NCBI GenBank assembly: GCA_020199835.1
Contig: JAIVJV010000009.1
Span: forward strand, 992,001 to 1,056,000
Direction: 5' to 3'
DNA from: Acidobacteriota bacterium
GTDB lineage: Bacteria; Acidobacteriota; Blastocatellia; Pyrinomonadales; Pyrinomonadaceae
Length of the DNA stretch: 64,000 bases
Position 1 is the stretch's first letter. Each line of letters opens with the position of its first letter. The translations under genes were made by a program, and so were the position numbers. Shown here piece by piece: positions 14,666 through 18,577 of the stretch. The notes below the pieces were generated by a model. That model saw nothing but the letters and a program-made list of their open reading frames with translations. It was not told the origin of the DNA and made no database searches.

Positions 14666-15915
14666 CACTCGCAGTTATTAATTGTTCGCAAGTGGTGACG
14701 CTGGCCGGGCCGGCGCGTCCGCGGGTCGGGGCGGAGATGGGCCAAGTGGGCGTTGTGGCGCCCGGTGCGTTGCTCATCCGTGCGCCGCGGATCGAACGGA
14801 TTGGAAGCACGGATGAGATCCTCGCGGCGGTAGATCCTGACTGTGAAGTTGTGGATGCGGGTGGCCGCGTCGTTCTCCCGGGGTTTGTAGACGCACACAC
14901 GCATCCAGTGTTTGCCGGCACGCGCGTCGACGAGTTTGAAGAACGGATTAAGGGCACGACTTATCAGGAGATCGCTGCGCGCGGTGGTGGGATTCAATCG
15001 ACCGTCACTAAAACACGCGCGGCGAGTCTTGATGAACTCGTGACGGCGGGCAAACGTTACGCGTCGTGGTTTTTGCGCGGTGGCACGACAACAGTCGAAG
15101 CGAAATCAGGCTACGGCCTGTCGTTGGAAGACGAAATCAAGATCCTGCGCGCTATCAAACGTTCGGACCAGGAGACTCCATTACGTTACGTCCCGACGTT
15201 TCTCGGCGCGCACACAGTTCCACCCGAATATCGCAACAGAAGAAGCGATTACGTTTCGTTATTAATCGACGAGATGTTGCCGCGTATCGCTGAGCAGAAA
15301 CTCGCGGAGTTCTGCGACGTGTTCTGCGAAGAAAACGTCTTCACCGCGGATGAATCGTGGCGAATACTCTCGGCTGCGCGCTGCCACGGCCTTGGGCTCA
15401 GGATTCACGCGGATCAACTTTCGCTCGGGGGCGGCGCGAAGCTCGCGGCGGAGTTAAATGCGATTACGGCGGATCATCTGGAGCATACAGACGCTGCCGG
15501 TATCGCGGCGTTGAAAGCTGCGGGCGTGCAGCCGGTGCTTTTGCCGGGTTCGGTTTACGCGCTCGGCTCGTCGCGTTATCCGGCCGCACGCGAGATGATC
15601 GACGCGGGACTCGCCGTCGTGCTCGCCACGGATTTCAATCCCGGTTCGTCACCCACGCCTTCAATGCTCACGATCCTTTCGCTTGCCGCGACGCACATGA
15701 AGTTGACACCGGCCGAAGCGATTACCGCCGCGACGATCAACGCTGCGTACAGTCTGAATCGCGGGGCTGAATTGGGTTCACTCGAACCGGGCAAGGTTGC
15801 TGACTTCGTCATTCACGACTGCGACGACTACCGTACGCTTGCGTACTTTTTCGGCGTCGAACACGCGTGGCAGGTTTACTGTGGCGGTGAATTACAAATT
15901 TCAAAAAGCGGTTGA
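14662..15915 (+). CDS. hutI: Imidazolonepropionase
   Basis: This 417-residue amidohydrolase opens imidazolone-5-propionate to N-formimino-glutamate, the third step of histidine breakdown. Metal-ligand motif [12 protein letters not shown] follows the first strand, and [12 protein letters not shown] is characteristic of HutI. The second metal region is [14 protein letters not shown], and the late [14 protein letters not shown] carries the catalytic Asp. The GTG at 14662 overlaps the TGA of the esterase and gives the standard length. The rest of the hut pathway (hutH, hutU, hutG) is not in this window. The stop is embedded in the -35 box of the RNA gene that follows. Confidence 0.92.
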
Positions 15916-15940
15916 CGCTCGCCCACTTGTACCTTATCAT
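15912..15940 (+). promoter_or_regulatory. Promoter of the structured RNA
   Basis: TTGACG (15912-15917) and TATCAT (15935-15940) are separated by exactly 17 nt, a strong sigma-70-type promoter. Transcription would begin near 15947-15948, just before the first paired bases of the RNA. The -35 box overlaps the hutI stop codon. Confidence 0.65.
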
Positions 15941-15977
15941 CGGCCTCAACACTGGAAAGGAGGTGATTCTAAAATTT

Positions 15978-16013
15978 ATGAGTTCTAATCACAGTGAGGT
16001 GGCTGCGGCCTGA
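15978..16013 (+). CDS. Possible 11-codon ORF inside the structured RNA
   Basis: An ATG at 15978 opens MSSNHSEVAAA and stops at TGA (16011-16013). Ahead of it, AAAGGAGGTGAT (15956-15967) is complementary over 12 nt to the usual 16S rRNA 3' end, the strongest ribosome site in the window. Its spacing to the ATG (10 nt from the end of the match, 14 from GGAGG) is long. In the predicted fold the site is fully paired and the ATG sits in a hairpin loop. It may be a regulated mini-ORF, or the match may serve to bind ribosomes rather than to start translation. Confidence 0.35.
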   Translation: MSSNHSEVAAA

Positions 16014-16126
16014 CCTCTGAACCAGCTAACTAGTTAGGATTCTGGTTCGGTAGTCTCACTGCACAGTGCTCCTCCTTTCTGGAAGCGGCACACAGTCAGC
16101 CTCAGGCCAATCCCAACAGTTCACCG

Positions 16127-16170
16127 GAGCCGTCCACGGTCACGATCGTGGACGGCTCTTTTATTTGTTT
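16127..16170 (+). terminator. Intrinsic terminator of the structured RNA
   Basis: A 12-bp perfect stem, GAGCCGTCCACG (16127-16138) with CGTGGACGGCTC (16147-16158), and an 8-nt loop are followed by TTTTATTTGTTT. It ends the RNA transcript on the plus strand and faces the minus-strand gene ending at 16214. Confidence 0.9.
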
Positions 16171-18322: not shown

Positions 18323-18413
18323 TGGCGGAGATGACAGGATTCGAACCTGTGAAGGGCTTTTGACCCTTAACGGTTTAGCAAACCGCCGCCTTCAGCCACT
18401 CGGCCACATCTCC
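18323..18413 (-). tRNA. tRNA-Ser (anticodon GCU), CCA encoded
   Basis: The minus strand gives a full class II tRNA. The acceptor stem is GGAGATG/CATCTCC with discriminator G and an encoded CCA (18325-18323). The D arm is GCCGAGTGGCTGAAGGC. The anticodon stem-loop CGGTTTGCTAAACCG has anticodon GCT, reading AGC and AGU serine codons. The long variable arm is AAGGGTCAAAAGCCCTT and the T arm contains GGTTCGAATCC. The long variable arm and anticodon settle the serine identity. Confidence 0.98.
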
Positions 18414-18549: not shown

Positions 18550-18577
18550 GGGACAAAACAGATGATTGGGGTACAAT
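18550..18577 (+). promoter_or_regulatory. Candidate promoter of dxs, close to the start codon
   Basis: GGGACA (18550-18555) and TACAAT (18572-18577) are 16 nt apart. The dxs ATG at 18587 follows nine bases after the -10 box, so the message would be leaderless or nearly so. A second weak candidate, TTGACT (18490-18495) with TACTTT (18513-18518), would give a ~60-nt leader without a ribosome site near the ATG. Confidence 0.35.

Follow-up and report, generated by a model that had tools for sequence, protein, structure and literature searches.

A free-standing RNA related to Ms_IGR-5 carries a conserved mini-ORF and may be a switch worked by translation

We found that an RNA of about 215 nt, encoded in the window (the whole analysed stretch of 64,000 nucleotides from an Acidobacteriota genome), combines a strong ribosome-binding site with a short open reading frame (ORF) whose coding strand also builds conserved helices of the RNA. 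Start, frame and stop of this ORF appear to be under selection across the RNA family, and the encoded peptide does not. A frame that stays open up to a fixed stop, while its product shows no sign of selection, suggests that what counts is the passage of the ribosome, and the RNA may then be a switch that the ribosome throws as it moves through. We assign a probability of about 50% to this free-standing RNA being a translation-operated switch that acts in trans.

The promoter, the RNA and an intrinsic terminator occupy positions 15912–16166 of the window, and no gene follows downstream. The elements of the locus are:

15912–15940, + strand: sigma-70-type promoter TTGACG-17-TATCAT, scoring 10/12; TTGAC and TAT elements also occur in relatives
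15948–16166, + strand: whole RNA, with the 5′ end placed by the promoter and by Ms_IGR-5 model position 1 at 15949
15950–15953, + strand: 5′ strand of helix P1, CACT, pairing with AGTG 15993–15996 (pair probability 0.98)
15956–15969, + strand: extended Shine-Dalgarno (SD) sequence AAAGGAGGTGATTC; a stretch of about 15 nt starting at G15955 is able to pair with the 16S rRNA tail GGATCACCTCCTTTC, with one G-U
15963–15967, + strand: upper strand of P1, GTGAT, pairing with ATCAC 15988–15992; confined to the window's bacterial family and nearly invariant
15978–16013, + strand: ORF of 11 codons plus TGA stop (MSSNHSEVAAA), recognised by conservation of frame and stop
15993–15996, + strand: 3′ strand of P1, AGTG, within the ORF; covarying
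15998–16012, + strand: 5′ strand of helix P2, GGTG-g-CTG-c-GGCCTG, in the ORF and reaching into the stop codon
16054–16060, + strand: CTCACTG, alternative partner of CAGTGAG 15992–15998; 5′ side of the pairing invariant
16071–16082, + strand: internal anti-SD strand CCTCCTTTCTGG, able to pair with the SD (15952–15963) over 12 bp; confined to the window's bacterial family
16103–16125, + strand: 3′ strand of P2, CAGGCC-AATCCCAA-CAG-tt-CACC, with a conserved internal-loop strand AATCCCAA (16109–16116)
16126–16166, + strand: intrinsic terminator with a 15-pair stem, a 4-nt loop (hairpin 16126–16159) and a T-rich tail
18323–18413, − strand: tRNA-Ser (GCT), between gltX and dxs

The nearest gene on the same strand, dxs, starts at 18566, 2.4 kb from the RNA, and a SnoaL-like ORF, gltX and the tRNA-Ser gene lie between them on the opposite strand. 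In the window's bacterial family, the RNA comes after an imidazolonepropionase-like gene (hutI, a label derived from an amidohydrolase match and the sequence) and often faces gltX, and in one Mycobacterium and one Actinoallomurus it faces a gene for a THAP4-type heme-binding (nitrobindin-like) protein. Since the neighbours vary from phylum to phylum, a role in cis is unlikely from the genomic context. The original prediction of a free-standing RNA that is neither riboswitch nor leader agrees with this arrangement, and the promoter that it named is present; its terminator is real but longer than the 12 bp proposed.

At gathering thresholds, the sole Rfam match in the window is a tRNA. In a sensitive scan, the whole Ms_IGR-5 model (RF02471, positions 1–184) aligned to 15949–16165; its score of 37.3 bits (E 4.2e-7) falls short of the 45-bit cut-off. 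The same model gave 55.9 and 47.0 bits, above the cut-off, in Zixibacteria and 67–173 bits in Actinomycetota. The window RNA is linked to Ms_IGR-5 through these intermediates, and a covariance model built from 32 diverse members (model R2) connects all of them. Judged by these model scores, the window RNA is a homologue of Ms_IGR-5 and part of a wider family; because it stays below the cut-off, we call it a homologue within that family and not a member as defined by Rfam. The RNA had initially been assigned to no known class, but its homology to Ms_IGR-5, bridged by Zixibacteria, allows it to be placed. Rfam lists Ms_IGR-5 as an actinobacterial sRNA, yet two Zixibacteria loci (L066 and L113) pass the RF02471 cut-off, so the RNA family is not confined to Actinobacteria. 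The RF02471 structure line does not contain the helices P1 and P2 described here.

Homologues were present in 20 of 39 genomes comprising the window's own genome and relatives, and a covariance model of 13 Acidobacteriota sequences also matched other classes. What the most distant homologues retain is limited to AATCCCAACAGTTCACC and, upstream of it, the part that runs from AACACTG up to the stop codon. Scanning named genomes for a sequence pattern yielded at least 120 stretches, mostly from Actinomycetota, together with Acidobacteriota, Zixibacteria and one Spirochaetia; the pattern matches L049 and L073 were discarded as chance, the former lying inside an apparently ordinary protein gene of a metagenome-assembled genome (MAG) labelled Thaumarchaeota. 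At E ≤ 0.01, model R2 matched 61 of 297 Acidobacteriota genomes, 35 of 99 in the Zixibacteria phylum, 79 of 199 Actinomycetota and 7 of 120 Spirochaetota, with a single match per genome in all but one; the second-best match in the window's own genome reached only E 1.07. The RNA family occurs in Mycobacterium and Streptomyces, genera that are easily handled in the laboratory. Within the window's own bacterial family, one large genus (g9 in f1) had no match at E ≤ 0.01, and the RNA may have been lost or have diverged there. A phage or plasmid origin was rejected, as viral contigs and phages gave no match to the RNA and the sole match in the plasmid collection lies on a 2.66-Mb Nocardia replicon, which is unannotated at that spot. 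Also rejected were CC2171 (RF01867; 15.4 bits and E 0.4 against a cut-off of 75) and tmRNA, ARAGORN finding no tRNA-like domain and the tRNA-Ser alone in the window; other weak Rfam matches were at chance level. Expression of the Ms_IGR-5 homologue has been reported for S. lividans (PMC8079986), and an sRNA transcription unit for that of S. avermitilis (PMC8780764). Our literature search found no paper that deals with the ORF, nor any on what Ms_IGR-5 does.

The 16S rRNA tail GGATCACCTCCTTTCT, read in another genome of the window's bacterial family (a search of the window's own MAG for it gave no match), is complementary to GAAAGGAGGTGATTC of the window across 15 nt with one G-U. Throughout the RNA family, GGAGG is followed 7–15 nt on by the start codon of an ORF of 11–20 codons, which stops exactly three codons past GAG GTG; in one Acidobacteriota family (f24; L034, L167–L169, L176 and L178) an extra, earlier copy of the GAGGTG motif lies inside the ORF. 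Among 179 distinct members, the start codon is ATG in 96, TTG in 53 and GTG in 24, and several of the six with none of these show CTG, ATT or ACG at the start site. All 179 carry a stop triplet (TAG 140, TGA 22, TAA 17), and TGG never occurs there. The prevalence of TAG at this site (16011–16013 in the window) extends outside Actinomycetota and may reflect P2 pairing or release-factor preference. Between the position 11 nt after GGAGG and the conserved GTGAGGTG, none of the 179 members has an in-frame stop, against 118 with a stop in frame +1 and 99 in frame +2; when the bases of this loop were shuffled without regard to kinship, an in-frame stop arose in 54 members on average and in 39 at the minimum. 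Pooled nearest pairs differ in the variable codons, which are short stretches, by 29 synonymous and 117 non-synonymous changes, a synonymous fraction of 0.20 compared with 0.22 expected without amino-acid selection. It is this combination of an open frame, a fixed stop and no synonymous excess that points to selection on start, frame and stop and not on the peptide.

On these patterns the ORF is very probably translated. In M. abscessus and M. smegmatis, the Ms_IGR-5 homologues carried footprints in published ribosome profiling, although the same paper cautions that non-coding RNAs can be protected too (PMC4974804). With a conserved and very probably translated ORF inside it, the RNA is not plainly non-coding. 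The original view of a regulatory RNA that touches translation thus holds as far as a structured, translation-linked RNA is concerned, but it had overlooked the ORF.

The predicted fold is stable with the terminator (z = −4.4) and far less so without it (z = −1.3, 22 of 200 shuffles being equally stable), so that stability alone is no proof of a structured body. The body of the RNA is structured, on the grounds of conservation and covariation rather than fold energy; most of the pairings first listed differ from the conserved ones. P1 joins ACACN to N′GTG, and its fourth pair is GC in 102 members, AT in 17, TA in 13 and CG in 10, which makes it Watson-Crick, with all four types seen, in 142 of 170 compared with a maximum of 98 in shuffles that ignore kinship. 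P2 consists of GGTG/CACC, CTG/CAG and an inner helix that includes bases of the stop codon. Compensatory changes are present, and the average length of P2 is greater with each member's own partner strand than in all 200 shuffles, which again ignore kinship. Pair probabilities computed for the window sequence are 0.95–0.98 in P1 and P2, so that thermodynamics lends both helices independent support. Homologues with covarying stems do exist, and the original prediction thus withstood the refutation by their absence that had been set for it.

In Actinomycetota, a 5-bp pseudoknot joins GGAYN in the ORF to N′RTCC in the loop of the 3′ (terminator) hairpin. Among 85 distinct members, most of them actinobacterial, and with kinship ignored, 83 have a Watson-Crick pair at Y:R, where shuffling gave 75 at most, and 58 have one at N:N′, against no more than 43 in shuffles. 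Versions with GACC/GGTC and GACT/AGTC can be recognised by eye in Spirochaetota and in some Acidobacteriota families; the window's bacterial family has a plain terminator loop without the pseudoknot strand. The RTCC on the SD side of the P1 upper stem was rejected as a general partner of GGAY, as this 5′ side does not vary with GGAY in the 85 members (opposite GGAC stand GTTC 11, ATCC 8 and GTCT 5), whereas the terminator-loop side does track it. In L197–L211 from the Zixibacteria phylum, AAATCCCAACAG can pair with an upstream TGTTGGG, forming a local hairpin absent from the window's bacterial family. Taking the comparative evidence together, the second half of the ORF coding strand and its stop codon are one strand of P1 and P2; the pseudoknot with the terminator-hairpin loop, present in many other lineages, draws on the ORF strand too.

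A further layer is found close to the window. A group of genera of its bacterial family keeps a strand complementary to the SD over 12–14 bp, with the SD side invariant, and no member tested outside that group reaches this complementarity. The fold that unites this SD:anti-SD helix with CAGTGAG/CTCACTG lies 5.4 kcal/mol above the best fold. Thus, two competing folds probably exist in the window's bacterial family, with CAGTGAG/CTCACTG as a plausible part of the alternative one. Two mutually exclusive shapes had been proposed before, from GAGGT/ACCTC against CAGTGAG/CTCACTG, and this proposal is partly borne out; the former helix is rejected because it is lost outside the genus, and the 12-bp SD:anti-SD helix had gone unmentioned.

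Translation would have to melt P1, P2 and the pseudoknot, since the ORF strand takes part in all three. In the absence of a ribosome, the RNA would fold into P1 and P2 (and the pseudoknot) and show its SD and start codon in a loop, and a ribosome that initiates and reaches the stop codon would melt the helices and release the 3′ strand AATCCCAACAG. The RNA would then report ribosome availability or translation activity, and it may act in trans, either by holding ribosomes or through the strand set free. For the window's bacterial family, the second fold would hide the SD against the internal anti-SD strand as an off state. The fuller proposal is of a deeply conserved RNA, shared by at least four phyla, that serves as a trans-acting sensor of translation capacity: translation of a mini-ORF with an irrelevant product would operate it, the switch being made as the ribosome moves on to the stop codon fixed within P2. 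In our estimate this stands slightly short of an even chance.

The chief rival explanation is that the RNA captures ribosomes: the SD of about 15 nt would bind 30S subunits and keep them, as a store or a brake, in the loop that P1 and P2 close, with the mRNA entry facing structure, and translation of the ORF would be the route of release. The very long SD complementarity, the often weak start codons (TTG 53, GTG 24) and, in 12-codon members, a pseudoknot strand starting roughly 13–16 nt past the start codon all suit such a trap, but it would not require a frame open to a fixed stop, it demands a high copy number, and the structure sits further downstream in members with longer ORFs, so that we consider it unlikely. 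A dual-function or messenger RNA with the short peptide as its active product is more doubtful still. The ORF is conserved and its products share a C-terminal pattern, [R/S/G/C]-E-V-x-x-x-stop, yet the first base of the R/S/G/C codon changes in step with its P1 partner and GCT becomes ACT, CCT or TCT, again by a first-base change, which indicates that nucleotides are kept and not residues. With residue changes driven by pairing and no synonymous excess in the variable codons (29 vs. 117), a functional peptide was rejected.

That Rfam files Ms_IGR-5 as an sRNA, and that a C-rich anti-SD strand is found in the window's genus, would fit an ordinary non-coding antisense-type sRNA with an incidental SD-like stretch. 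A stop codon in 179 of 179 members and no in-frame stop before it are unexpected for a non-coding RNA, however, and the anti-SD strand is limited to the window's bacterial family, which leaves this explanation improbable. The least credible alternative is a cis leader or attenuator of an adjoining gene: an attenuator would indeed combine a short ORF with competing helices and an intrinsic terminator, and in one Zixibacteria locus a same-strand gene follows the RNA, but the distance to dxs in the window, the often convergent downstream genes and the neighbours that differ between phyla make it highly improbable.

What was an obscure actinobacterial Rfam entry thereby widens into an RNA family that spans at least four phyla, and a start codon in nearly all members, with an open frame and a stop codon in all, provides a testable handle. 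If the translation-operated reading is true, the ribosome itself would be operating a free-standing RNA switch, something of which we know no clear example. Dual-function sRNAs with a short ORF, such as SgrS/SgrT and RNAIII, are free-standing regulatory RNAs that carry an ORF, as the window RNA does; unlike in these, we found no selection on the peptide here, and the ORF strand itself forms conserved helices. In leader-peptide attenuators, translation of a short ORF decides between competing helices and the act outweighs the product. Translation of the window RNA's ORF would likewise choose between helices, but no gene lies past its terminator and its neighbours are not conserved. Ms1, which is reported to bind the RNA polymerase core (PMC4191392), and 6C RNA are also free-standing and conserved, in Actinobacteria, but neither has an Rfam match in the window. 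With Ms_IGR-5, finally, the window RNA shares ACAC, the extended SD, the ORF running to a fixed stop, GTGAGGTGGCTG, the AAT-CC-CAG-CACC strand and the terminator; it differs in scoring 37.3 bits against the cut-off of 45, in lacking the pseudoknot strand of the terminator loop and in having an internal anti-SD strand of its own.
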